Assembly: GCA_009192285.1 (NCBI GenBank)
Contig: CM018607.1
Coordinates: forward strand, 62,001-126,000
DNA from: Morchella semilibera
Lineage: Eukaryota > Ascomycota > Pezizomycetes > Pezizales > Morchellaceae
Direction of reading: 5' to 3'
Length of the DNA stretch: 64,000 nt
The position numbers and the translations under genes were made by a program. Below are positions 9,362-38,000 of this stretch, piece after piece. The first letter of the stretch is position 1, and each line of letters starts with the position of its first letter. The notes beneath the pieces were generated by a model. It ran no database searches and was not told the origin of the DNA. It worked only from the letters and a program-made list of their open reading frames with translations.

Positions 9362-9367
9362 GAGTAC
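9362..9367. repeat. target site duplication GAGTAC (left)
   Basis: GAGTAC here is repeated exactly at 18874-18879, immediately outside the two terminal inverted repeats of the 9.5-kb DNA transposon. Confidence 0.9.
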
Positions 9368-9470
9368 TACGGCAGCCTATACTTACAAAAGGGCAAATAC
9401 CTATTGTGTGTGTGCCGGTGCCGCGTCCGGGTACTAGTGTGTTGATTAGTCATAACTGGACAACTTAAGT

Positions 9471-9814
9471 GTGGGACCCTGCATCTTATCAACAATCAGC
9501 CATCATCACATCCGGAAGTCAGAGAAATCAAGACTATTGGGACAATGCCATGTTCGATATATTGACTATCTGATTTCTATTTTTCGCTGGAATATACACG
9601 TTAAGTCACGCGTCTCATTCACGGGGAAGCAGGTAAGATTGAATCCTACTACTTGGAATCCTGCTAGTCGTTACATGAATCTAATTTTTCATGATTCAGA
9701 AACACGCGTTAAGGGATATATCACGGTATTTTCTAGAACAACTTTACAAGAGGAATCTATTGCACCAATTCTCGAGTCAATCAGAAGAAAATTGGCAGCG
9801 CTAGAAGGAAAAAC
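9471..9814 (+). other. possible 5' exons of the dioxygenase gene
   Basis: An open frame starts at 9471. A good splice donor (CAG|GTAAGA) near 9631 and an acceptor (TTCATGATTCAG) near 9701 would join it to sequence homologous to the 161-bp repeat units that follow. In that spliced frame the exon reads through a repeated peptide of the type RNLLHQFSSQSEENW, then meets a TAG shared by the first three array copies. This may be the decayed N-terminal part of the dioxygenase gene. Confidence 0.3.
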
Positions 9815-10440
9815 AGGTAATTTCCGCTCCCCCATATCAATTTTATTTTTCGTTCCACTCATAGACATGCTAGGAAATCGTTGAGCACACGCCCTAGACC
9901 AGTTTAACGAGAGGAATCGATTACACCAACTCTCAAGTCAATCAGACGAAAATTGATTGCGCTAGAAGGGAAAACAGGTGATTTCCGCTCCCCTATATCA
10001 ATTTTATTTTTCGTTCTACTAATAGGAATGCTAGGAGATCGTTGAGCACACGTCCTAGACCAGTTTGACGAGAGGAATCGATTGCATCAACTCTCGAGTC
10101 AATCGGATGAGAATTGGTTGCGCTAGGAGGAAAAACAGGTGATTTCCGCTCCCCTATATCAATTTTATTTTTCGTTCCACTCATAGACATGCTAGGAAGT
10201 CGTTGAGCATACGGCCTACACCAGTTTAACGAGAGGAATCGATTGCATCAATTCTCGAGTCAATCGGATGAGAATTGGTTGCGCTAAAAGGAAAAACAGG
10301 TGATTTCCGCTCCTCTATATCAATTTTATGTTTCATTCCACTCATAGATGTGCTAGAGAATCGTTGAGGGAACGTCCTAGACCAGTTTGACGAGAGAAAT
10401 CGATTGCACCAACTCTCGAGTCAATTGGATAAAAATTGAA
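9746..10440 (+). repeat. 161-bp tandem array with exon/intron-like units
   Basis: At least four units with an exact 161-base period: the AACAGGT(A/G)ATTTCCGCTCC word recurs at about 9813, 9974, 10135 and 10296, and a fifth, diverged unit begins near 10391. Each unit has about 80 bases of open, protein-like sequence (RNRLHQLSSQSDEN type) ending in CAG|GT(A/G)ATT, followed by a T-rich stretch ending ATAG. So the period looks like one short exon plus one short intron. It lies directly upstream of the dioxygenase frame. Confidence 0.75.
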
Positions 10441-10616
10441 AGTACAGCGAGCAAAATTGGTATTTTATTCTTCCTATATCAACATGAAATTTTTGAAGTA
10501 CTGACATTTGTGCAGAAGATACCGGAATACTACGCCCCAAACTTATGCAACGAGAGGAATCTATTGTATCTATTCTTAAAACAATTAGATAAGAATTGAG
10601 GTCACAATATCGATAA

Positions 10617-11819
10617 ATGGAATTGCAGACTATTGCAGTTACGATTAAAGGATACACTGCGGACTTGGAGGACCAAGAATTAATTTCCGAAGTTGAAATA
10701 GAGAATGATACCGATTACCTAGAGTCTACAACTAGGCTTACTACCTATAACTTATCAGTACATGATAAGAGTAGTGCTCCAGTTCGGCCTGCGGGATGGT
10801 TATGTGATCCTGCGTATCATTTTGATACAATGTCATCGGTCGCATCCAGTGATTCCGATTCCATAACCTATACTCGCAAGTCTAAATCTAGTAGGAAGAG
10901 GGCAGCAAAGAAGAACAAACAAAAAGACACATCAAAAGAGAAGAAGCTCAAAGCTATAAAAGACGGAACTTCTAATATTATTGCTCCAAAGAATATCAGT
11001 CTCGCATCCTTAAATAAGCGAACTAGAAACAGTCAACCAAGCTATGTTTTGCAGCGACTTCCAGCAGAAATACAAAGAACACATAAAATCTATACAAAGG
11101 AGGAAGTTTGTCATGGTCTTCGGATTTTGGATAGTAAAGGTACAATGTTGGTACATTTATTTCCAGTGAATACTCTCCCCGGAGATATATTTGAACAATT
11201 TGTTCATTCCTGGAAAGTGTATGATAGTTCGGTATCATTTCCTAACTATGACTACATACATTCCCGGGGAGATTATTCTGCTATAGTCTTGGGTTGTTGG
11301 TTTAAATCTGGAAGATTTCTCAAACCGTATATGTCTGCACATTACCGAGGGCCTGGTTCAGGAAAGCATTATAAAAGGAAAGATAATCCTCATTATATTG
11401 CAGCAAAGAAATTCCAAAAAGCCAACCTCCGTCTTTTTGGTTTTATTGAAGGATTGATTTTAAATCATTACCCTATTATACATAAGTTGTATAAATCTAT
11501 CAAGGTTCCCGATAGTTGCCATAAATTTGCTGGCCTTTTCGATGCGGTAGTAATTAACAAGCTAGTTCAAACAAAAATTCACAAAGACCTCGGTGATATC
11601 AAGGGAGGGATTTGTGTTATTATATGTTGGGGTGATTTTCAAGGTGGTGAGTTGGTATTCTCTGAACTCCTATCTGTAATTCCCTTTGTTGCTGGCTCAA
11701 TTATTATATTTCGATCTGTTGTTCTTTCACATTATAACTTACCTGTAATTGGCGACCGATACTCAATGGTTTTTATGACTGATAAAAGTTTAAAACTTTG
11801 GTCAGACAAACAAAATTAA
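10617..11819 (+). CDS. TET/JBP-like 2-oxoglutarate/Fe(II) dioxygenase carried by the transposon
   Basis: One uninterrupted frame of 400 codons. Residues 1-130 are polar and lysine-rich (a basic KKNKQKDTSKEKK-type tract near 100-115). The C-terminal half has the double-stranded beta-helix signature: H322-K-D324 (HxD iron ligands), GGELVF about 20 residues later, distal H372 in LSHYNLPVIGDR, and R381 that would bind 2-oxoglutarate. The spacing and the G-x-R-x-S-x-V-F ending match the TET/JBP group found in fungi, which oxidises 5-methylcytosine or thymine in DNA. Fungal TET/JBP genes are known to travel with KDZ-type transposons; here the partner is a different transposase type. All key residues are present although the neighbouring transposase is broken. 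The start is the first ATG of the open frame; upstream exons may exist. Substrate is inferred, not shown. Confidence 0.75.
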   Translation: MELQTIAVTIKGYTADLEDQELISEVEIENDTDYLESTTRLTTYNLSVHDKSSAPVRPAGWLCDPAYHFDTMSSVASSDSDSITYTRKSKSSRKRAAKKNKQKDTSKEKKLKAIKDGTSNIIAPKNISLASLNKRTRNSQPSYVLQRLPAEIQRTHKIYTKEEVCHGLRILDSKGTMLVHLFPVNTLPGDIFEQFVHSWKVYDSSVSFPNYDYIHSRGDYSAIVLGCWFKSGRFLKPYMSAHYRGPGSGKHYKRKDNPHYIAAKKFQKANLRLFGFIEGLILNHYPIIHKLYKSIKVPDSCHKFAGLFDAVVINKLVQTKIHKDLGDIKGGICVIICWGDFQGGELVFSELLSVIPFVAGSIIIFRSVVLSHYNLPVIGDRYSMVFMTDKSLKLWSDKQN

Positions 11820-12222
11820 TTATCTATCAGTCCTAGTTAATAATCCTGTATTCATTAAATTTTATATATTATTTATTTTTTATCCAGGCCACGTCGCTTG
11901 TTTTAATAATTTTCTAACTCAAATTTTATAATAATCAATAATAAGTATTGACGTAAAACTGGTGCCAAAAATTTTAATTAAAGCGGTTGGAAACAGCTAT
12001 TATAATTTTAAAATTACTCTGAAATACAAATTTTCATGCTACTAGTTTTGAATTACAAATCAATATGGTTCGGAACTATCTTATTCCGACCCCGCTATAA
12101 CCTTTTGGTAACTAGTCTACAAAAATTTTATCAACTGAAAATTCCTACATGATAGCATTTACGAGTCAGTTCCTCACAACTTTAAACCAATATTTTCAAA
12201 TATTTCTTTCGAAAAAAATATA
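11820..12222. other. AT-rich spacer between dioxygenase and transposase genes
   Basis: About 400 bases with no open frame of note. It probably holds the terminator of the dioxygenase gene and the promoter of the transposase. No clear TATA box or polyadenylation signal could be singled out in such AT-rich sequence. Confidence 0.4.
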
Positions 12223-14102
12223 ATGGGTCGTCCAAAAAAATGCCTCGACAATTATAAAGATATTATCCAAGAGCTCTATATTGAACCGGATATGACAGCG
12301 AAGGATATTATTACTTATCTAGGAACCAAATTTGAATTTTTTGTTAGGTATTAAGAGTTTCCGTATGAACAATACTATATATACTAACAAGATTTAAATA
12401 GTGAACGATTATTAAAGTCAAATCTCAAAATATGGTCATTCAAGAAAAATACCTGAACAAATGACTCTGGAGAATTAAGGCTTCGGATAATTGTTTGTTT
12501 AACCCATATGGCTTTAAATGATGAAGAGATATTTCATGTTCTCCAAACTGAAGGTTGCTATATTTACCTTTCATATATATATTCTCGAAGCTTTTGATTT
12601 TATATATAGAACTTAAACTAACTATTTATTTTTACTTATATTTAACAGGATATACAATTGGGTTCCGCCGACTGCAAAGTATAAGAAAGGAATTGGGATT
12701 TCCACGATCGATTACCAATGCCGAAGTATTATCAACTGCCAATAATAATTTAAAGAATGCGATCATGGAGGAGTTAAAGAGTAGAGTCCCTGCACAATAT
12801 GGCCGAGAATATATGTATCGACACTTGAAAGCAAGAGGAATTCCTGTTGCAAGAGATAGAATGTTTGCTATCATGAAAGAATTAGATCCTGAAGGTATTG
12901 CATCTAGAAGTAAAGGTCAACGGAATTATAAAGGTATATACTCAACTGTGAAATCGTCAGGAATTAAAGTAATTTATAATTGTTTAGGCCATTATAGGGT
13001 TCCAGGACCCAACTGGGTATGGTTTATTGATGGTCACCTAAAATTCAAAAGCTACGGAATCGAAGTATATGCTGCAATTGATGCTTACTCATGATATATT
13101 GTTTGGATATATGTAGAGGTTTCCGCTACCACCGCGGTAGGAATTCTTTCACAATATCTTTCAACCCTTGAGTTGGGAGATATATGTCCTAAGTTCCTTA
13201 AGTCTGACCATGGGACGGAAACACCATTAGTAGCTAATGCACATTGGCAATTTGCTAAATTGGATGTGAAAAATAATGATTTACCATTTGGTAAAGCAAA
13301 TCTTTATGCATCAGCAAACTCAACTTATGACTGGAGTCTCCCAACAGTCTCCCAGGTCTCCTGAGACTCTCCTGAGCCTCCCAAATATTTTTTGAGTCTC
13401 CTGAAGTTCAGGAGATATCAGGAGACAAATGAAGTCTTGCTGATGTGGTACAAGTATGAGGAATCAACGTATCGAGGCATGGTGGGATATTATGACAAGA
13501 GGACAATCACAAATGTGGAAGGTTCGTAATCTATTATTTGAAATTAATATCAGTACTCAATAATAAATAAGTTCAATTAATACTAATTAAAAATGTTCAA
13601 CTTGAATAGTCTTTATTTTCGAGACTTAAGGGTGAGAATTGCTTAGACGTTGATAGCATTGCAGACAAAATAGCAGTAGCCTATATATATATTCCACTAT
13701 TGCGTGAGCATATTTATCATTTCACACATATATGGAACATTCATAAAATCAGGAAACAAAAAAACCGACCGTTTTTGGTATCCGGAAAACCAATTCTGAA
13801 TTATTATCACCCAGAGCTTAATACTCAAGCACAGTCGGTAAAGAATTACGGATCTATACCAGACCCAAAATTACTGAAAAATCTAAAAGATATAGTTAAA
13901 GATTATGGTATATTCTCATATTTGCTAGAATGTTAATATTTTGTAATAACACAAAAAAGATTCAGAAACAATCCTACCTATCGATACATTCAACTGGTGT
14001 ACTGAAATACTCGCACTCAATAATTACAATCTACCAATTGTACTTGAACAACGGGAAATTGACGGAACTAATACACACGTTAATGCATATTTGTTAGTAT
14101 AA
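12223..14102 (+). pseudogene. integrase-core DDE transposase, multi-exon, inactivated
   Basis: Exon 1 (12223-12347) starts MGRPKKCLDNY, a typical N-terminal helix-turn-helix for this class. Exon 2 is 12402-12553, exon 3 about 12649-13521 and exon 4 about 13610-13931, with a C-terminal piece to 14102 in another frame. Introns end in AG with CTAAC upstream (for example 12554-12648). The catalytic core is readable: D in WVWFIDGH, D in LKSDHGTET and E in NQRIEAWW. Two in-frame TGA stops occur at 12454-12456 and 13092-13094. The second falls where the family has Arg (IDAYS-R), so CGA to TGA is likely. A palindromic insert (13334-13426) also splits exon 3. The frame change near 13932 cannot be a normal intron (under 35 nt). 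Not functional as it stands. Confidence 0.8.
13334..13426. repeat. GTCTCC/GGAGAC palindromic insertion inside transposase exon 3
   Basis: About 93 bases made of GTCTCC and GGAGAC words in both orientations sit between the coding parts ending ANLYASANS and resuming TSMRNQRIEAWW. The frame is lost across it. It looks like a tiny foldback element or a palindromic minisatellite, not an intron. Confidence 0.5.
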
Positions 14103-14127
14103 TACAATTACTTTCAAATGTAGTTAT

Positions 14128-17100
14128 TCAGTGTACGAAGAAGGTTGGCAAGAGAAGGTCGTCAGACTCCTGCGACACATGCCTGAACCTGACATGCCCC
14201 TCGAGTCACACCCTTTCTGGGCACGAAATACGGGAAGCGAGACTCTCGCTAGTGCTATCCCAGAAGAGTTCCAAGACTACGCAGATGTGTTCTCCCCTGA
14301 AGGAGCAGGACGCCTGCCGGAACATAGTGAGTGGGATCATACGATTCCTCTCGTGGACGGAAGCCAACCTCCGTGGGGTCCCATTTATGCATTATCACCC
14401 CCGGAACAGAAAGCGTTGAGGAAATACCTGGACGAAATGTTAGCGGCAGGTAAAATTGTCCCATCTTCCAGCCCAGCAGCGGCACCCATCCTCTTCGTCC
14501 CTAAACAAGACGGGTCGCTACGGTTATGCGTCGACTACCGCGGCTTAAACTCCGTTACAGTCAAGAACCGGTACCCACTGCCTCTCATGACAGAGCTGGC
14601 AGACTCGACGAAGGGAGCTCTCTTCTTTACCAAAATAGATCTCAAGAACGGTTACAACCTAGTAAGGATCGCAGAGGGAGAAGAGTGGAAGACAGCCTTC
14701 CGGACCAAATACGGCTACTTCGAATATAGAGTAATGCCGTTCGGCTTGACCAACGCTCCGGCAACGTTCCAGGCAATGGTCAATACCATATTCAAAGACC
14801 TGTTAGATCAGGGTCTAGTGGTTTACTTGGATGATATCCTGATATATTCCAAGTCTAGAGAAGAGCATGTAGCTCTTGTGCGCAGGGTGCTGGAGCGGCT
14901 ACGGCAACACCATTTATACGGCAACCTGAAAAAGACAGTTTGGTTCCAAACGGAGGTAGAATTCCTAGGATTCAAGCTATCAGGTACGGGAACCCAGGTC
15001 TCACCCGAGAAGGTGAAGGCTATTACCGAGTGGATAGTACCCACAAAGGTAAAGGAGCTTCAATGCTTCCTGGGGTTCGCCAACTTCCTAAGGCGGTTCA
15101 TCTACGGGTATTCTGCGGTATGCAAGCCCATGACAGATCTCCTGAAGAAGAATGCCGTATGGAAATGGGGTCGGGAAGCGCAGGATGCTTTTGACGGGCT
15201 CAAGAAGCTATTTACCACCGCTCCTATCCTCCGACACTACGACGAACATCGCATGGCTGTCCTTGAAACAGATGCCAGCGACTGGGCAGAGGCTGCGGTC
15301 TTGTCACAAGTGTTCGAAGATGGCAAATTACATCCGGTGGCTTACCACTCTCGCAAGTTCAACGAGGCCGAAGTCAACTATGAGATCTACGATAAAGAGA
15401 TGCTCGCAATAGTTTCCGCCCTCTTGACTTGGAGACATTGGCTGGAAGGTACGGACATACCTATCCAGATCTATTCTGATCACCAAAACCTTCAGTACTT
15501 TACAACGACCAAGAAGCTGTCAAGAAGACAGGCCCGTTGGGCTGAGAAGATAGCACCTTTTCACTTCAAAATCCACTTTCGACCAGGCGACAAGAACGGG
15601 AAACCTGATGCATTAACCAGGCGCCCGGAGTACGCCATGGAAGGGGGAGTAGTTCGAGAGCAGCCAGTAAAAATGCTTCTCTCACCTGAACACTTCGCGG
15701 AAAGAAACCTCCTCCCCGAACATTTTGCAAGAAGGACACAAGCGGGAATAGAACCTCGTGAAGAAATCCTCTGCAATCCCCCATCGGAAGTGCGTTTAAT
15801 GGAACAGTGGGTACACATACCAGGAGTGGGAATGCCTGTGGCTCTGCAGAACTGGTATGAAGAAGAGGGTCGATGGACTCGTAGGATAGTTCCGGATGAA
15901 CTCCCTGAAAACGAAGATCCTGAGGACCTGTGGACCCGGCAGACCATCTTGCGGGAGGCTGCAACAGAGTGGGATCCCGATCAGAATACAGCGACTCATG
16001 AAGGACGCTGGGTACTGCCTGGGCATGCAGTCAAGCAGGTCATAGAAGACCATCACGACAGGCCCACGGCAGGGCATCTAGGCAGAGATAAAACCTTGGA
16101 ATTGATTGACAGGAACTACTGGTGGCCAGGAATGTCCACAGATGTAGCCAAATATGTCAGTACGTGCGACGTATGCCAAAGAGCCAAACAACGACGACGA
16201 CATATGTCTCTTCCACAGCCCCTAGAGTTAGCCACGACCCCTTGGTGCGACATCTCCATGGATTTTGTAGTAGAAATGCCCAAGGAGCGGTCAAGTTTCC
16301 GGAACGTCATGGTTGTAGTGGACCGCTTCAGTAAAATGGCGCACTTCATCCCAATGACAGGAATCAACGCAGAGCAAACTGCACAAGCATTCGTCAAAGA
16401 CATCTGGCGCTTTCACGGACTCCCGCGATCAATAGTATCGGACCGAGGAACACAGTTCGTGTCAGCCTTCTGGACAGCGATTACAGAACGACTAGGGATT
16501 CGAAGAAGACTCTCGACCTCGTTCCATCCGCAGACAGATGGTCAGACGGAAAGGACTAACCAGCATATGGAGTCCTACCTACGAGCGTTTACGGCCGGCA
16601 CAGGTAAGAAGTAGAGAGACCTACTTCCTATCTGCGAATATGCCTACAACAACGCCAAACACTCCTCTACCGGGCAGTCCCCTGTGACGGAGTAACCCGA
16701 CGCAAAGAAGAAGACGACAATGATGACGCAGAGGGACTCGAGGAGCACAGTGTACTCGACGAGGGAGCCGTTGAAGACAGGGACAACACCGGGCAGGCAC
16801 AAGCACAGGCACCGGCGAAGACAAAGGCAAGAGCGAGGGCACAAGAGCACAGAACAGAGAAGATGAGGATCGAATAGACCTCAACGAGAACGGGGAGGAA
16901 TACTATGGGTTTCCTCTTGTCAGAGGATCGAGTCTTTGGTACGAGGGACTATGGCTTTAGAAATAGGAGTAAATTCCTATGTATCGAAATAACAGGAAGA
17001 CGAGACAGAGAGAAAAGAAAGAAAGAACTAAGGAAAACATCTATCCCCGCTATTTAACATACCTCCTCCACCAGTCCGCCAAGACTACATATCGTCATCC

Positions 17101-17883
17101 ACAGAATTCCATAGAAACCCGTCGCTACCACACCTCGTAATCCTCCCCACCATCTCCGCTATTTACATTACCAATCCATCACGCCATCGAACCTCCTAGA
17201 AACCTATGACGACACCCTCCACCTCGCATTCCCTGCTCTCGCTTAACATTTCCCTAACAACCACAACCGGGCACTACCCACCGAACTGTCGGGACAGATG
17301 CCAAGACGCCGGGACATCCCGTTCTATTGCAACTACGGGTTTCACCCTCGCTCAGACTGGCCTACGGACGTGGAGATTGAGCAGCTGGATGCCGAAGGGA
17401 ATAACCACCTGGATGAAATCCTCGCCGCCCATTGAACTGGCCCGAGAAACCCTACAGCAGACGTACGATAAAATGGCGTCACGACCTGGTCCCGCAGCGC
17501 AGCAGTTCGAACTAGGGCAGAAGGTCCTACTAGATACAAGGAACCTCGGCGGATACAATAAATGGTCAGATAAGTTCACTGGACCCTTCGAAGTATTAGC
17601 CAAGATCGGTAATCGAGCGTACCGACTAGACCTACCAGCAGACTGGAAGGTTCATAACGTGTTCCATGAGATGCTCCTGCGACCCTATCGTGAAGATGCG
17701 GACCCCCACAGGAAGCAGAACACTCGCAAACGGCTGGCAACCCCAGAGCCTCAAGAGGCACTAATGGATGAAAATGCCAAACCGGTTATCAGCAACCGTC
17801 CTCGCACTCGGAGTCAAGACATAGTAGCCCCGGAGTCCGGAGCACGGCAGACTAAGAGGCAGCGACGGTTGACAGAGCAATAA
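14128..17883 (+). pseudogene. pol: gypsy pol (RT-RNaseH-integrase), interrupted by a solo LTR
   Basis: The 14131-16614 frame carries reverse transcriptase (TKIDLKNGYN, then YLDDILIYS near 14824-14850), RNase H (ETDASDWAEAAVL, then [12 protein letters not shown]) and integrase (H-H-C-C zinc region with AGHLGRDKT and CDVCQRAK; DFVVEMPK; VSDRGTQF; TDGQTERTNQ). A TAG at 16612-16614 replaces an expected Trp (G-to-A). The frame then resumes (LLPICEYAYNNAKHSSTGQSP) until the 634-bp solo LTR at 16683. It continues from 17322 (FYCNYGFHPRSDWPTD) to a stop at 17883, with the C-terminal FTGPFEVLAKIGNRAYRL region and no chromodomain. A DNA copy made defective by truncation, one nonsense change and one insertion. 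Confidence 0.9.
16683..17316 (-). mobile_element. solo LTR, 634 bp (family A), inverted copy
   Basis: On the reverse strand it starts TGTCCCGGCGTC and ends CCGTCACA, the TG..CA ends of an LTR. Flanking 5-bp duplications are TCCCC (16678-16682) and TCCCG (17317-17321), one mismatch. It is the same length as, and visibly homologous to, the copy at 25155-25788 but in opposite orientation. It splits the gypsy integrase. Confidence 0.85.
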
Positions 17884-17976
17884 TCCCGATACCTTCCCTC
17901 ATCATGGCTTTTCCCACAGGGTTTTTTCCATGGAAGGGTTTAACGGTCGAGGACGACGGCTTGGAAGGGGGAGTAG

Positions 17977-18313
17977 TGTTACAGGATTGCTTGGAAGTGC
18001 GGTACTGGTAGTACAATGGTATTGTCCCGGTATGACGGCGCGATGGAAGAGTGACGTACGCCCAGGAGCGGGGTTCGGTTATAACTCGGCAACCACTACC
18101 ACACCTTATGAACGGGCCCTTGGTTACCCCACCTCGTAGGAAGTCGGAGCAGTAGCGGAGGCATTGCGGTAGATTTGCCATTGGAGGAGTTAGCGGGTTT
18201 AAGGGAGGTCTTCATGTATAAATAGCTAGTAGGATTCCCGTCGTCTTAGGGGAATCATCATCCTCTCAAGCGAACGGAATCCGGTCTACAATATTACAAG
18301 TTTAAAAGCTACA
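17977..18313 (+). repeat. 3' LTR of the nested gypsy element
   Basis: Starts TGTTACAGGATTGC directly after the polypurine tract. A TATA-like TATAAATAG lies near 18218. The end is placed at a TTACA or CTACA near 18298 or 18313; without a 5' LTR to compare, the border is uncertain. Confidence 0.55.
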
Positions 18314-18340
18314 GAACTATCGCTTAGCATTAGCCATATC

Positions 18341-18700
18341 TTAGTGACTTCTGAGATATCCCTTTACATGACCAGAACGTTTGTTGATAGGAAAGTTTGC
18401 TGAACGTGCTTCTTCGACATCTGCTCTATTATCAAATAAAGACAGTCGGCTACTAGATGCTTTTCGGATCGTTGGTTTCATTGGTGTAGAAATCTCTTTC
18501 GATTTCTGCGGTGATAGTGGTGGATTGAATAAACTATCGTCATCTGAGTCAATGAGACTGATAATTGCTGGTCTAGTATCTGAAAGTTGTTTTTTCGGAG
18601 TTGACGCAGTATGCAATGTATTTCCACAGAAGGGGCAACCTTTAGATTTAAGGCTACTATGCTCTAATCCGGGTTTTTCGGAACAAAAACGCGTCGACAT
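18341..18700 (-). CDS. small cargo protein with CPFCG zinc-like motif and SUMO-interaction-like motif
   Basis: A reverse-strand frame of 119 codons inside the DNA transposon, starting MSTRFCSEKPG at 18700. It has a CPFCG knuckle with an earlier Cys and a later His, which could bind zinc. It also has AIISLIDSDDD, a hydrophobic core followed by acidic residues that is the textbook shape of a SUMO-interacting motif. The rest is Ser/Lys/Pro-rich and likely disordered. The stop at 18341 is about 30 bases from the 3' border of the nested gypsy, so the original C-terminus may have been removed. The longer open frame upstream of this Met (to 18838) runs toward the inverted repeat and is less likely coding. 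I do not recognise the family; it may be an accessory gene of the transposon. Confidence 0.5.
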   Translation of the reverse strand: MSTRFCSEKPGLEHSSLKSKGCPFCGNTLHTASTPKKQLSDTRPAIISLIDSDDDSLFNPPLSPQKSKEISTPMKPTIRKASSSRLSLFDNRADVEEARSANFPINKRSGHVKGYLRSH

Positions 18701-18873
18701 TTCGGGGAAAACAATGTTGAGAGAAAAAGATATGTAACATTTAGCGAGAATGAGGTGGGTATGAAGTAAAAAAATTTTCAGTTGATTAGTCATACTTGTA
18801 CTAGTGTGAAAAGAAAATCTTACCAAACCCCCTGTCAAACTTATTTGCCCTTTTGTAAGTATAGGCTGCCGTA

Positions 18874-18879
18874 GAGTAC
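18874..18879. repeat. target site duplication GAGTAC (right)
   Basis: Exact copy of 9362-9367, abutting the right terminal inverted repeat. Confidence 0.9.
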
Positions 18880-30297: not shown

Positions 30298-31521
30298 GGC
30301 CGCTGTCTTACAAGGCTAAGGTAGCTTCATAGACAATATGTATTACTACTGTTAAATAAAACCGGAATAATATTGAAAAGGTCTTGTCATATACTCTTTG
30401 AGCTACTGAAGGGTTGAGGTTGATCCAATTATCATAAACATCATAATAAACAATTGATTTTAGTTTGACATTCATGCAGTCCGCGGTCCTCAGTCCATCA
30501 GTCCATGCAGTCCGTCAAATTTTTGGGACTGCGTGTCTTGGCGCGATCGACTGCAGTGGACTGCAGTCGGACTGAACCACTGGCGGTATAATAATAATAC
30601 TCTAATAATAATTGCCTATGTGCCTGTGCCGATGGATGGTCTAGCCCATATGGCCATCTCGAAGATTACGCGCCCAACCCTTAACCAGGTCAGCCACTGA
30701 GCTGGAATCGGAATTAATGGGCGCAGAACCCAGCTCTAATTTCTCGCAATTCCTTATCATGCAAAAACCCCAGGCGTTATCTATTCAGCCCTAGGTTTTT
30801 CTCATACCCGCCTTTAAGCCTAGGCCTTACTAGTTTATGTAGGCTCAGCTGAACGGAGGATGGTTCGCAACGGACTGCTACATGCTCGCAAACTTGGAAA
30901 TATCTTGCTAGTGCCATCTCAAGTCATGCGTACAGTTCTGACGAAAAAATATTTGAACCTCAGAAATATGGACAATACACTAGATAGGATATTTTGGGAC
31001 CCACTAGGGGTCTTGAACATCACCAAGGCCTAACCCAACAGTGGATTGATTAAACTTGTCAATTTTTAGACAGCTTAGGTTTCAATGGGGCGTTAGTTAT
31101 AGATATGGAAAACGGAGGAATAATTCAATCATTATTGTATATGGCGCTCGGTAATTCACAAGCACTGATCTTTACATGAACTCTAATGGACGAGATTTTA
31201 TCGTATATATATATATATATATTTCAAAGACTCAATAAGTAGACATGTAAGAGAAATCCTAACTAATGAGAAGCTTGCTTGTACTTGATATAAGAAATGT
31301 TTCCTAAAGCACTACTGGTTACGAATACCGGTGAATGCCCATTCAGTATTTCCGGAAAAAACTCTTACAGGGTTCCTTTCGCCCCCGTTATTCTGTGTTC
31401 AAAATCTTAGTTAGCAGCATGTTCTCTAAGAGCGCACGTGCCCTCACTACTTGCAAGACTCTGCCTGCCATAACAGAAGTAAATTGTTCCGCTCACTTAC
31501 TGGGAAAGCATTATCCGAAGC
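30298..31521. repeat. intergenic with AGTCC/GGACT word cluster (30475-30590)
   Basis: Between about 30475 and 30590, CAGTCC and GGACTG words recur in both orientations around a GCGCGATCGACTGCAG core, so this is another foldback-like stretch. A (TA)n run lies at 31204-31222. No gene is seen. Confidence 0.4.
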
Positions 31522-33582
31522 TCAGGTAATGACAAGGTCATAAGTGTCCCACAAGTCAAACTGCGGAGGTTCCTCAATCTTATCTGGGGGGGGTATATCA
31601 GGAATCGCGCTATCGCTGGTAGGAGTTGCGACCCAGAGCCCAGGAGCAGCATCTGCTTCTTCCGTACCAATTTCAGGCATCTCCAACGTCCGGTATGAAG
31701 TGGATCCATATGTGATGAAAGCCCTCAGTAAGTTTGTGTCATGGGGGACACCGGACACTGGCCTAGTTCTGGTAAAAGAGAATGTTCGGAAATCGTTTTC
31801 ATCGATAGTATCGAGGTCGGTTTGGACCGGAAATACCTGCCTGATGCCCCAGTGGGGTGTAAAGTGCATAATTACGATGTTGACGGTGTAGCTAGAGTTG
31901 TTTCTGAATTCGAATTGAAGCTCCTCTTCAGTGTCGTTAAGTATCTCTGAAATGAAGCAATGTTATCAGTACTTTACGAATAATAAGAGCGACCGCTTGA
32001 TATTGAGAGGTTATATACTTGACTCAGACTGCGTGAAGTCGAAGGGCTCTTCTGGGTCCGGGCCCACATCACTTTGTCTCTTCAGAGTCCGTAAGGTAGA
32101 GTAGCGTGCAACCTGGACTAGCCTCTTGAATGCCAGTTCCGCGCTCTGTGATACCGGGATATTGGGAATCTTGGTGCCATTACTGTATAGGATCTCGTAC
32201 GCGGAGTCTCCGGTAGTGGCGATCTGATAGTCGGGAGACTCATTGCCTGCTTGAATCAGGGGCACGATGGCGCTGCGATATTTGTCCCAGTCAAGGCCAG
32301 AGATGGGATGGACGAGTTTGACCTGCTTGTACACCTTGGAATAGTCCTGTCTCAACAGAACTGCCTGGCACCCGGAAGGCCAGCTCTGGACATCTCCGCC
32401 GACAATGGAAGCAGTAGAGAGCATATCAGCGGCCTCTATCACTATGACCCTCTTATACGCCTTCCCAGGATCGGTGGTGTCATGGTCGTTCCATTTGTAG
32501 ACTGCGTACTCTGAGCCAACAGTCACGCCGTGTGCTTTCCCTGCCATCAACATTACGGCACTTTTGGATTGATATATTTCCCTGACTGGGATTGTAGGTG
32601 TATTCTTAATCCTCCCCGTCCCTAGGAAGACACGCTCGCCATCGCCGACGAAGACTGGAGTCTGCTGCCATTTTCCGTCGTAGACATCGCTATAGACCTT
32701 CCGGAACAGCATCTGGTGACTCACTTCTTGCGTGCCATCATCCGTCTTGATAGCGTTCAAGGTTTCCAAAAGCCAATGTGTTAGGATTCCATTCCTAATG
32801 CCTGCGCGGCACATTTCTGCTCCAAAGCAGGTTTCCCGGGCCGTCTCATTTGCCCGCGCAGCGGCAATGAACTCATATCCGAATGGCTCCAACAATGACG
32901 TGGGCCGAGACCGAGAGGCCCGTTCCTTCTGGAGTTCCCAGTTTTTCCGCATGTCTTCAACCGGAAACCTCGTCACATCGGTGGGTAGTAAAGATTTGTC
33001 TACCTTTCCTGGGCTTCGAGGTGTAGGCAGCGTAGGGTCACGAACGGCGCCGCCGGAATGACAACTGTCGAGAACGACAGTGAGGACTAATCCCTTCTTT
33101 ACCATTAGATTGAGTAAATAAGCTAGCTCGAAATCTCGGACGTAGCGTCCGCCCTCGTTGATATCTGTGGGAGCAAGTCCCTCATCCAATTGGTTGGTTT
33201 TGAGGTCGGGAAACATGGCTTGCATTCGTCCCCCGTGTCCAGAATAGTGGAAGTACACAAGGTCACCCGCTTCTGCCTCATTTGTGACATCTATCAAAGC
33301 TTGGGTGATTGTCTCATACGTTGGCCATTGCGCTTTCGGCTCTGTCGGTAACTCTTGATCCGCCGTTCCACTGGCGATGTATTTTTTGATACGGTCTGGA
33401 TGAACCTTTTGAACTTTGAGAAGGTATTGCTCGGTATTCTCGATGTCGGGAACGCAGCCCCTCAGATCGCCGTACACGATGGAGCGAGCGTCTTTGGTGT
33501 TCTTTGGATCGACTCTGATGTAGTAGTTTATGCCTATCAGGACTGCCCATTTGTTGGGTGTGCTCCCTTTGGTCGAGGTCAT
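31522..33582 (-). CDS. caspase-domain (peptidase C14) protein with C-terminal beta domain
   Basis: Two exons, 33582-32019 and 31946-31522, joined over a 72-nt intron (GTATAT..TTTCAG, branch CTGATAAC); product about 662 aa. The caspase-hemoglobinase domain spans residues 10-300: KWAVLIGINYY at 11-21, the catalytic His 116 in YFHYSGHGGR and the catalytic Cys 174 in VLDSCHSG. The type is that of fungal metacaspase-like C14 proteins, which cut after basic residues in family members studied. The region 300-520 is a mixed beta segment. Exon 2 supplies FEFRNNSSYTVNIVIM and PHWGIRQVFP, a domain often seen behind fungal caspase domains where it may sense or bind. There is no prodomain, signal or membrane segment. 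The start is the first Met of the frame, immediately before the domain. It diverges from the TPR-CHAT gene across 1.5 kb. Confidence 0.88.
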
Positions 33583-35089
33583 TTTTGGGATGTAATGGAT
33601 CGAATTACTGTAGTGAAGAGTGTTAGATTGAGCTCTAGCTTAATGTCGGGGGTGGAAGTCTCACGAATCGTTAAAAGTTGTGGGTAATAAGTAGATATTG
33701 CGAGACCTTGGATGGAGGTGCGGTTATCCGTTGGATTTGGTGGTTTGTCAAACTTGGAGTGGATCTAGGCTAGGAAGAGGGGAAAGAGGCCTCTTTTTTT
33801 TAAAAAAAAAAATGAGGAGATTTGTGGTGGTCAATGAATGGCACGTAGGTTCAAGGATGATTGTATGCGGAGATTGTAAGTTGTTGAAGAGAAATGATAG
33901 CTTATCATGAGTGTGAGACTTTAAGTGATGCCGTCTATACCTAGAAGATGATCTCTTTACACTGTCTAAGAAGCCCTAAGACGCAAGCATACCGAGAATT
34001 GCCTCTTCTTCAAAGGCATGCATGTCCATACGTGTCCTATGGTCATGAAGCATAATCATGATACCCCTCACTTCCTTCAGCTTTCACAGAAGTACTCGCC
34101 CTTTTTTTTCTTTTTCTTTCTCTTTTGGGGGAGGGGGTGGTGGTGTTGTGCTACCAGAAAATTTCTTGTCTGTATTCCTATCGATAACCGAAGGATGTTC
34201 TCCGTCGTTTCCAGCCCTCACGAAGGGGGTTAGCATTGAACTGACCATGGATATATTCAGCTTAAAGGTACTTGTTTCAAGCTTGATCCTTAGAAAACCT
34301 AAGGCAATGCCTCCAAGTAGGATAGGATAGCCACATGCGTGTCATGTGGGTACGCCACATTACCCTACCCTGGGGGGAAACCCCTAACCCACTCCCAGCC
34401 GAGCTGCCTTCTAGACCAAACGCATCGGGCCTATTATCCCCCCGTATTTCGAATGTCTCATACCCCACAATTAATTGACCCGCGCTTCCAAACCTGCATG
34501 GCCTTGGCTTTACCGACCAGTCTGAATTATTACATGCACCTCTCACCCGTTAAGGTATTGTACGAGATACTCACGCGGGCCTCAGCTAGATCACATAACG
34601 CTTCGAATTTACAGACAGACAGCTTCCGTCAAGATCATCCCTCATTACTTTGGTATCACGAAGCAGGCATTGACCCCGTATAAAAGGAACATCCACTGAG
34701 AATACCACTAAGAAACTAAAAACCAGAGTGCCTCATGTATGAAGTATAGGTAAATAAATAAACAAACTAGAGTGCCTTCTGCTCCTAATGCTAGATCATA
34801 ATCCGAATATAAGGTGGACGTGCGAAATAACTGCATTTCCCGGAAGCTACCGCTACAAAATGCACTTTCTGGTTCGCCAATTAAACAAAGCGCAGAATGG
34901 TTTCCTTCCCACACCCTCTTGGAATTTAGTCCCAGCGCAGCTGGTATGTATTTAAAACACGCGTTTTTATCTACGTGACGGTCAATCCCCATCGCTCTAA
35001 GCCTCCTCAAACTCTCAACCATGTAACTTTCTCTCTCAATATCTAAGCTTGACACACATAGCTAATGCGTAGTATAGAACTCACCCGCA
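33583..35089. promoter_or_regulatory. divergent intergenic region between caspase and TPR-CHAT genes
   Basis: No supported gene. TATAAAAG at 34679-34686 on the forward strand is a plausible core promoter for the TPR-CHAT gene, though it is about 400 bases from its ATG, which would imply a long leader or a 5'-UTR intron. A C/T-rich to G-rich switch lies at 34100-34145. Confidence 0.4.
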
Positions 35090-38000
35090 ATGGGCGACAA
35101 CCAAGATAGCACTCCCAAGCCATTTCCCTCCAACGTAATCCAAGCGCCGCGGGTTCTGAAATCTCCCCCGAATACCGACGCTCTAATCGAGGCGCTACGA
35201 CAGAAAATTGCACAAGTCCCCGAAGGGGAAGCACCCCCTCTTGAAGACCTCCATACTCTGGGCGATCTGCTCCAGGACAGGTTCGCAGCTACCAAAAACG
35301 AGGATGACATGAAAGAGAGCATCGATATGAATATGCGCGCACTGGCAGCCATCGGTAATCAGCATCCATACTTCTTCAGTATTGTGTATGAAACGAGTCG
35401 CAAGTGGAGAGCGCTGTACGAGAAGAGCAAGGTTATCGAACACCTCCGTAACGCAATCAAGTTCTCAAAGGAAGCAATCGACACTTCGCCCGACGGCCTC
35501 ACCAAGCCCGTGCCTTTGAACGAGCTTAGTGACCATTACTGGACCCTCTGGGGGAGAGAACATAACATTGAAGACCTCGATAATGCTATTATACGGGACG
35601 AGCAGACTCTCAAAGCGCTCGATCCTCTCCGCCGCCCTCGATCCTTCCGAGCTCGGTACGAATACGGCCTGGCCCAGATGTTATGGACCCGATATAACCA
35701 AAAGAAGTCCAACAGTGATCTTGACAGGTCAATAGAGTTACTGGAGAGTGTAGTGGATGGAGACCCTGGTAGGAAGGACATATGCGACGTATTTGCTATG
35801 CTCAGCAGTGCCCTCATGGAGAGATACAAGCGTGGATACCAGAGGGACAGGTCTACAGATTTAGATAAGGCAATCCAACGAGCCAAGCAGGGCGTGGAAG
35901 CAAGTCCTCCGGATCATCCCGAACTTGTGATTCGCCTTTCATACCTGGGGAACATGCTACAGCTCCGGTATGACAGATCCGGAGAGGACCAAGATATCGT
36001 CGACGCCATGATGTGGACGAGAAAGGGACTCAACCCGAACAGTCCAGATTACGCCATGATTCTGGATGCCCTTGCACTCCAATACATCTCCAGATACCAT
36101 CAGACGGCGGATCCTGAGGACCTTAGAAACGCCATCGAGAATGACGAGGCTGCAGTCGAATTGAAACACCGGAACCTAAAGAGCCATCAATCAAATCTTT
36201 CCAGTATGCTCAGCGAGAGATACAAGGTAGGAGGGGACCCACGTGATATTGAACGTGCCATGAAGCTGGCGGATGAAGCGCTCTTGGAGGTCTCGGAGGA
36301 CGGCAGTGTTAGTGATGATCGAGCGAGTGCGTTGATGATACTAGCCTCTCTCAAATCTGCAAGATATGCAAAAGATGGCGACGTGAATGACCTCAACTCA
36401 GCTACCACGCTTATCAAGCGGGCGTGGGAAGCCACACCGGCAGGCTCCGGTATGGGAGCGAGGATTCAGCACAATCTGGGTACTTATCTGATGGACCACT
36501 TCCGAATTACAGGAGGGCTGAATGATCTGCAAGCTGCCATGGATGCATCGTTGAAGGCAGATGAACTCATGGAGGTTGGCCATGCGGATCGTGCAGTAGT
36601 CCAGTCGGGGCTGGCGGCCATGTTTGAACATCGATCCAGGCGTACTGGAAGTCTGGACGACCTCCACGATGCCATCAAGTATTTCAGAAAGGCATCCGAA
36701 TCGGTACCGGCCCACAATCCATCAAAGGCGGCCTACCTGGGCTACTGGGCACGATGCTTGGGATACCTGTATGAGCGGACAAAATGCGAAAAGGACCTAC
36801 TCGAGTCTGTTGACCGAGCGAGGGAAGGCCTGGCTGTCTTAGGGCAGCGCGAACCCAGAAGAAGAGCAGTATGCTTGCTCGCCCTGAGCGGCAGACTTGG
36901 GGCGCTATACGACCTCAAAAAGGAGCCTGAGACTCTCAAGGAGGCAATTGACCTAGCGGTTCAAGCAGAAAAGATACCCGGCCTTCATGGGTCCAGTCGT
37001 GCAATCGTGTTGAATGACCTTAGTGCTCGATATGGCCAATCCTCTGACCCCGTCCTTCAAAATCTGAGCACCGATTACGCCAAGAAAGCAGTCGAGGAGT
37101 ACCCGGAGAAGGATCTTGATCGAGGGGCTCTATTATTCAACCTCGGGCGCCGCCTGTCTATAAAGTTCGTAGAGTCGCTCAAGGGGGAGGATGCGGATCA
37201 GGCCTTGCACTATCTGGAGAAATCATTCCGGACAATCAACTCACCGCCAAATCATCGTCTTAAAGCAGCCAGCTTAATGGCTGAAATTCTAGAATCATAC
37301 AAACAGTGGAAATGGCTTAGCAAACTCACCGACGAGGCAGTCCTGCTTCTTCCCCGTATAAGCCCAAGGTCTTTATCTCAGGAGGATCAACAGGATGCCC
37401 TCAAGAGCATATCTGGCCTCGCCTCTCTTGCTGCTGCTGCTACCCTTCAGGCCGGGGGAATGCCGGGTCAAACTTTGAAGCCGGGTCGAGCTTTGAAGCT
37501 TCTGGAGCTCGGACGGGGTATCATCAATGGCCATCGATTCGAGCTGAGGACCGATCTTGCGGAGCTTAAGCAGGCGGATAAAGGACTGGCGGAAGAGTTT
37601 GAGCAACTACGAGAGGAGCTGGACCCCGTGCTTGGCGAACCGACGATATCGGTGACTTCAATGCCCGATCCCCTATCACCCTACTCGCGGCGGGAGAAAG
37701 CCAATCAGAAAATGGAGATTCTACTCGCAAAGATTAGGAAATTGAAGGGGATGTCACGCTTCCTTTGCCCACCTAGTGTGAAGTCGCTGAAGGCGGCGGC
37801 TGGTTCGGCAATGATCATCATTATCAACGTCTCATCCATCCGTTGCGACGCAATATTCGTTTCGAAAGATTCGATCACAACGCGGGAGCTAACAGAGCTC
37901 AAGCATCAAGATGTCACATCACGATCTCTCAAATCCCCCACTGAGCGCAACGGTATGATAAATCAGCTCGCGTGGCTCTGGAAGTCTGTAGCTATCCCAG

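Follow-up and report, generated by a model that had tools for sequence, protein, structure and literature searches.

A stretch of 64,000 nucleotides of the Morchella semilibera genome (the window; contig CM018607.1, positions 62,001 to 126,000) contains, at 9368–18873, a single IS3EU-type DNA transposon, a fungal element of the cut-and-paste kind, and between its ends lies an intact gene for a dioxygenase whose sequence and modelled fold support its membership in the TET/JBP family. This dioxygenase is rather probably a standing cargo of the transposon, predicted to act as an anti-silencing function. The coordinates of the element are exactly those of a first-pass annotation of the same DNA, which also held that an IS3EU-like transposase had taken up the TET/JBP cargo. 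That statement is right, but it is already published: the association was reported by Kojima 2025 (PMC12730594), and it was rejected as a novelty in itself. The genome searched comprises 56.8 Mb in 23 contigs, here called C1, C5, C9, etc.; the window corresponds to C5 bases 62001–126000.

The two 32-bp ends of the element are a perfect inverted match and the hexanucleotide GAGTAC abuts each of them, as the first-pass annotation had it. The termini (TACGG..CCGTA) agree with those of IS3EU elements, which have terminal inverted repeats of more than 30 bp of the form TAYGG..CCRTA, and the 6-bp target site duplication is of the usual IS3EU length. The ends are not a product of chance, since 14 further inverted pairs listed for this stretch of 9.9 kb (20–33 nt) are imperfect, being 73–90% matched, and since the identical 32 bp bounds a second element, located on C9.

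The dioxygenase gene is one open frame of 400 codons with no internal stop, so its earlier description as an intact 2-oxoglutarate (2OG) dioxygenase within the same ends holds, and the product displays the HxD...H...R residues. Alone, it matches PF12851 with 18 bits (E 0.0017), below the curated cut-off of 34.9, while all 16 members of its alignment match this family at E ≤ 0.01. When six members were scanned singly, P0011 (41.7) and P0013 (35.5) exceeded the cut-off, and P0001 (32) and the relatives from C17 (28.2), C6 (24.9), and C9 (24.2) fell below it. The solved folds nearest to the model are those of CcTet, TET2, NgTET1, and CMD1, according to a re-examination of the Foldseek ranking rather than an independent search. 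A sequence search of the PDB with the dioxygenase family found nothing, and a search of viral contigs gave 145 pattern stretches and no relative. The PF12851 matches in the alignment, the residue alignment, and the fold neighbours led to rejection of another 2OG family, the outcome that the first-pass annotation had named as fatal to its proposal. The PE type, marked by HxE, was also rejected, as the window enzyme reads HKD at this place. Of 11 TET-like sequences read from the genome, HxD is found in 10, HxE in none, and the H is missing from one; three more PF12851 matches, outside this count, lie at C11:1610864, C14:28406, and C22:915175. A TET-like fragment is also found at C5:385737–388976, where it adjoins a frame that, by its motif, resembles the C-terminal part of a hAT transposase.

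The residues of the AG type, represented by CcTet, are not kept: at H+5 and H+11 the window enzyme has D327 and C333 in place of G331 and D337, a placement based on two alignments made via the C7 family and gapless at the site. This difference, together with the presence of CMD1, the maker of a different product, among the fold neighbours, would suit an enzyme that hypermodifies bases or acts on another base or to another product (6-methyladenine, thymine, or 5-methylcytosine converted to something else), protecting the element without demethylation. Such an activity appears unlikely, as the fold is no more distant from the oxidases of 5-methylcytosine, and a Pfam scan of the element frames (six from the window and three from C9) revealed no glycosyltransferase or second modifying enzyme, no dedicated search for these having been made.

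A genome-wide search for the 32-bp end, allowing three mismatches, found six sites: two in the window, two in C9, and two in C10. C9 and C10 differ at 0 of 7501 bases and were therefore counted as one, the idea of a separate insertion in C10 being rejected. C9/C10 and C21/C22 are contig pairs with the same word matches at near-equal positions, which suggests that parts of the assembly contain both haplotypes. The C9 element (31405–37811) comprises, in this order, an end, six repeats of ~175 bp, the dioxygenase gene, the transposase gene, an opposed third gene, and the other end. Its dioxygenase is intact (413 amino acids) and 67% identical to that of the window; its target site duplication is 7 bp long (GGACGTA), and it lies in a different place with different flanks. 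Because C9, the sole other place found with these ends, has the same genes, the dioxygenase cargo is a property of the family; the cargo-free copies feared in the first-pass annotation did not turn up. It is very improbable that the dioxygenase was taken over by the host while the rest of the element decayed around it: no other gene of the window copy is still intact, but the C9 insertion, elsewhere and between other flanks, also keeps the frame open.

The transposase was announced as a DDE integrase-core protein, and such a gene is present, but it is not intact. It matches PF24764 (rva_4, integrase core; cut-off 26) with 45 bits when read across a stop, and the piece before the stop gives 21.5 bits. 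The stop, TGA at 13092–13094, lies within the core, and the frame is further broken by an insert of ~136 bp, so that the acidic residues are visible in separate pieces (FIDGH, SDHGTE, and RIEAWW). A relative of this insert sits near the C17 Helitron described below. The C9 transposase scores 65 bits against PF24764 with N replacing the first catalytic D. Neither copy thus seems, from its sequence, to have a working transposase, though both dioxygenase frames are open. The third gene codes for a protein with a Cys/His cluster and a conserved C-terminal part (KEGPHYLEV...GAGRIFIIVEE), and contains a stretch that, by its motif, looks SUMO-interaction-like. Its pieces have no Pfam match over the cut-off, and part of it, compared by sequence with the PDB, gave no match. 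In C9 it seems to end early at a stop, judging by the longer frames in C1 and C15. In the window it is cut by a retroelement filling ~4.2 kb of the interval, which is presumably Ty3/gypsy-like, a label given from its reverse-transcriptase, RNase H, and integrase motifs. With the transposase and the third gene broken and the dioxygenase the sole intact gene, the window copy is probably immobile by itself. The retroelement, the six tandem repeats of ~161 bp, and the fragment of the third gene had escaped the first-pass annotation. The features are collected in Table 1.

Table 1. Features of the IS3EU-type element in window coordinates, and location of the third gene in related elements (stretch label L042:22–6520 equals C5:1842521–1849019; L043:2999 to L068:484 equals C15:887298–894633)
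Feature	Position	Strand
Target site duplication, left, GAGTAC	9362..9367	
Terminal inverted repeat, left, 32 bp, starts TACGG	9368..9399	+
Six tandem repeats, ~161 bp each, upstream of dioxygenase	9727..10598	+
2OG/Fe(II) dioxygenase assigned to TET/JBP family, 400 amino acids, intact; H322, D324, H372, R381	10617..11819	+
IS3EU-type (PF24764) DDE transposase gene, in pieces	12227..14090	+
Repeat of ~136 bp inserted in transposase gene; 85% like a C17-locus stretch	about 13310..13445	
Retroelement insert, presumably Ty3/gypsy-like, 5'-truncated, borders approximate	14131..18299	+
Third conserved gene (open reading frame 3, ORF3), first part only, cut by retroelement insert	18341..18838	-
Terminal inverted repeat, right, 32 bp	18842..18873	-
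Target site duplication, right, GAGTAC	18874..18879	
Third gene, as located in the different IS3EU elements	window 18341–18838; L040 4270–5963; L042 2259–3334; L043 5766–7045	

Searches with the C9 transposase and PF24764 yielded seven IS3EU loci, C9/C10 being taken as one. Five further PF24764 loci (C1:1867196, C1:2367740, C3:2143213, C2:2765798, and C2:2818913) were rejected as members of the same group and left out of the seven, on the basis of one of them, which, read over 7 kb, showed neither TACGG ends nor a cargo gene in its longer frames. This second group has a 566-amino-acid frame in three of the five loci, with the two translations compared near-identical; the locus read is C1:1863400–1870400. 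Both ends and the duplications are visible in five of the seven loci, namely in the window, C9, C1:5438958–5445281 (GGTAAG), C5:1842521–1849019 (CACGAC), and C15:887298–894633 (ACCAAC), each of the last three having a 6-bp duplication; the C21 stretch examined has its start within the left end, and a search at C1:5212987 gave no ends. The order of genes is cargo, transposase, and opposed third gene in the window and C9, and cargo, opposed third gene, and transposase in C1, C15, and C5:1842521–1849019.

The cargo differs among the seven loci: it is TET/JBP-like in three (window, C9, and C1:5438958–5445281), JmjC in one, and Fpg/Nei in two, with none seen in the wreck at C1:5212987. The first-pass reading is therefore not the whole picture, as four of the seven IS3EU loci lack a dioxygenase of this kind. 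The C1 cargo is a protein of 409 amino acids, only ~26% identical over ~90 residues, with a Tet_JBP match of E 0.0079. The C15 element has perfect 32-bp ends, a transposase core showing the DDE residues, and a JmjC gene with open exons in our own splicing. As read in four exons, the gene codes for 446 amino acids; both halves of the product exceed the PF02373 cut-off, the H-x-E...H residues are present (HVE and YHSG), and the closest protein in a search that gave two matches, from Trebouxia, is 34% identical over half its length. The transposase cores of C1 and C15, one with a TET and the other with a JmjC cargo, are 78% identical, so cargo has been exchanged within the IS3EU group. The transposase tree has poor resolution (one of six branches starred), and 0% of its 200 bootstrap replicates unite the three TET elements in a clade.

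The third kind of cargo is a 444-amino-acid protein encoded at C5:1847195, in the element C5:1842521–1849019, and at C21:2991126, the C21 copy being 97–98% identical with its frame broken in two. A family profile built with 17 relatives matches NEIL1 (E 4.5e-6, ~80 positions) and Fpg (E 1.1e-4, about 80–105 positions), and the best 26 of its 57 rows are all Fpg/Nei. At E ≤ 1, H2TH is found in seven of the 17 relatives (best 0.0015) and Fapy_DNA_glyco in four (best 0.0024), while neither is found in the C5:1847195 protein, for which the best Pfam match is PV_NSP1 (19.9 bits, below the cut-off of 25). All 11 alignment rows reaching the site have an N-terminal MPE, which in P0032 lies behind an N-terminal extension, and 10 of 11 have the GK lysine, residues used here as marks of Fpg/Nei glycosylases; the frame of an Fpg/Nei-like gene on C16, outside this alignment, reads REG at the tested place. 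By these sequence tests, the 444-amino-acid protein is a member of the Fpg/Nei (NEIL1-like) family of DNA glycosylases. A Tuber indicum gene model, P0029, whose product is 38% identical, fuses it to an IS3EU-type transposase, and thus the link between Fpg/Nei and IS3EU is not confined to the M. semilibera genome. For one of the cargo genes, the closest named proteins are those of Choiromyces, Maublancomyces, and Tuber, with a Sclerophora protein also among them. The Fpg/Nei-like loci C1:5075868 and C16:923906 have no IS3EU-type transposase match beside them, and therefore the gene is not bound to IS3EU. A weak Fpg/Nei-like locus, C2:2821808 (E 0.001), lies ~2 kb from a PF24764 locus of the second group. 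The C16 gene (L070:2505–7020) is situated between two direct repeats of ~120 bp, 4.4 kb apart, perhaps belonging to another kind of carrier.

Relatives of the window dioxygenase are also borne by Helitrons. The gene at C6:396200 (53% identical) is located next to Helitron_like_N (PF14214, 2.3e-24) and PIF1 (PF05970, 1.9e-17), i.e., the Rep/HUH-type N domain and the helicase by which a Helitron is recognised, and the one at C17:253323 (59% identical) next to a PIF1 fragment, the PIF1 part alone being seen there. Helitron termini were sought at both loci by eye and not found. Both genes are broken, that of C6 by a frame change near the C-terminus and that of C17 by a stop. In the dioxygenase tree the window and C9 enzymes group together (100/99) and then with those of C6 and C17 (100/99), apart from 17 database homologs; the dioxygenase gene has therefore passed between IS3EU and Helitron. 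The proposal that mobile DNA has recruited a base-modifying enzyme more than once is borne out by these two Helitrons.

The four dioxygenase genes from the window, C9, C6, and C17 share a further trait, an array of four to six tandem units of 161–175 bp directly before the gene. The units mostly differ between IS3EU and Helitron, with the exception of an 18-base stretch, ATATACGCCCTAGACCTA, identical in C9 and C6; the units of the window array (the C5 array) hold a weak version of the core present in C9 and C6 (ACGCCCTAGACC). In an ungapped comparison the C9 and C6 arrays score 18, whereas the highest score among 300 dinucleotide shuffles is 14 (0/300). When the genome was scanned with a 19-base core word of one C9 unit, allowing at most two mismatches, 12 sites were listed: the C9/C10 array accounts for 10 of them and the Helitron array of C6 for the remaining two, while the reversed control gave two sites. 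A looser word, ACGYYCTAGACCTAYT, has all of its 11 exact sites in the C6, C9, and C10 arrays.

Several results speak against an array function shared across the transposon classes. The window array compared with that of C6 is not significant (24/300 shuffles) and shows the shorter form only, and none of the sites listed for the 19-base word at up to two mismatches falls in the C17 or window array. Moreover, ACGYYCTAGACCTAYT was built from the very arrays in which it is found; among its 24 one-mismatch sites, seven are in the arrays and 17 elsewhere, and its reversed control has 17 sites in all. There is somewhat less than an even chance that the arrays bind the transposase as subterminal repeats, or simply act as promoters, and are unrelated to targeting of the dioxygenase. 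Arrays of different sequence lie near the ends of the C1 and C15 elements as well, and in the window, C9, and C6 the last core is placed, in a promoter-like manner, ~80–120 bp before the start codon. On the other hand, the same core also stands before a dioxygenase gene borne by a Helitron, a class that makes no use of the IS3EU transposase; this counts against transposase binding though not against a promoter. We infer that the shared core is a putative conserved promoter or binding site, and propose that the array may be a self-targeting address, by likeness to the VANC motif arrays.

In an active element, the dioxygenase would be made from a promoter region holding the tandem array and would oxidise methylated bases, either of the element or of DNA in general, and so lift the methylation that the host imposes on the element. 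The array may be the address drawing the enzyme or a partner, as VANC arrays do in the plant VANDAL elements. Alternatively, the gene would be a neutral passenger captured by chance, with no role for the element; in favour of this, four of the seven related IS3EU loci do without it, and the Helitron copies in C6 and C17 are broken. This alternative is nevertheless improbable. The pN/pS ratio of the dioxygenase is well under 1, past purifying selection on it being shown at the level of its sequence; the frame has stayed open in two separate insertions of the family and in one distant family, and the association of TET/JBP with transposons recurs in many lineages (PMC12730594). For a cargo with an anti-silencing role, the best reading of the related loci is that it would be exchangeable between eraser enzymes. 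A more far-reaching and only tentative idea is that IS3EU has an "eraser slot" near one end, occupied by a TET/JBP-like, JmjC, or Fpg/Nei enzyme depending on the family, and that the TET gene moves between IS3EU and Helitron together with its address array, each family erasing marks on itself. The three kinds of enzymes would then represent three different steps in removing silencing marks, and escape from silencing would be a modular, exchangeable function of transposons and not the fate of one enzyme family. Swapping of erasers in one cargo place would be natural evidence for which host marks silence transposons, and a single genome would supply TET, JmjC, and NEIL-like enzymes borne by elements as tools that can be tested. 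A motif array common to transposon classes would make self-finding by transposon-borne demethylases a question for binding assays.

In Kojima 2025 (PMC12730594), TET/JBP genes are described in eleven transposon lineages, IS3EU and Helitron included, and escape from methylation silencing is proposed; the stated roles of G331 and D337 in CcTet and the HxE mark of the PE type in Pezizomycetes come from the same source. The TET-positive IS3EU elements reported there, in rusts and one truffle (IS3EU-1_TuIn), resemble the window element in their terminal inverted repeats of more than 30 bp (TAYGG..CCRTA), the 6-bp duplications, and the presence of transposase and TET/JBP genes inside the same ends. 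In contrast to the PE type, marked by HxE, and to IS3EU-1_TuIn, which has a large N-terminal deletion, the window dioxygenase is of the HxD type and full length. In the reported elements TET/JBP lies between the transposase and an opposed alpha-kinase gene; in the window the order is dioxygenase, transposase, and ORF3, the last being opposed and without a Pfam family over the cut-off. A PF02816 (alpha-kinase) search of the genome gave no match, as did its controls. Carriage of JmjC or Fpg/Nei by related IS3EU elements likewise sets the M. semilibera elements apart. The words "JmjC" and "minisatellite" do not occur in the available text of Kojima 2025, and "tandem" only in a reference. In the open-licence literature no publication was found that pairs IS3EU with JmjC or Fpg/Nei with a transposon; for IS3EU with a glycosylase only Kojima 2025 was found, where the host thymine DNA glycosylase (TDG) is meant, and no JmjC-carrying transposon of this kind is among the literature matches listed by title and start of abstract. 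A swap of cargo among TET, JmjC, and Fpg/Nei genes within one transposon group was thus not found in print, nor, compared with the available text of Kojima 2025 only, were the HxD type in a Pezizomycete-like IS3EU and an array word shared with a Helitron. According to a published report (PMC5566547), NEIL1 excises 5-carboxylcytosine and assists TDG, so a glycosylase cargo would act downstream of TET.

The C6 and C17 Helitrons recall the TET-positive Helitron1 of Pezizomycetes (PMC12730594) in carrying a dioxygenase, here grouping with that of the window (100/99), and differ from it in the HxD motif and the tandem array before the gene, with the core word of C6 shared with C9; for the pairs compared in that paper, no signature was reported at the ends of transferred segments. 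The Kyakuja-Dileera-Zisupton (KDZ) elements with TET/JBP (CcTet of Coprinopsis) have a transposase of another class, and G331 and D337 are not kept in the window enzyme. VANDAL elements encode the anti-silencing factor VANC and hold motif arrays in non-coding tandem repeats (Hosaka 2017, PMC5735166). The window element may work alike, with an element-borne factor and arrays, although VANC, as presented in the available part of that paper, is not described as a dioxygenase.

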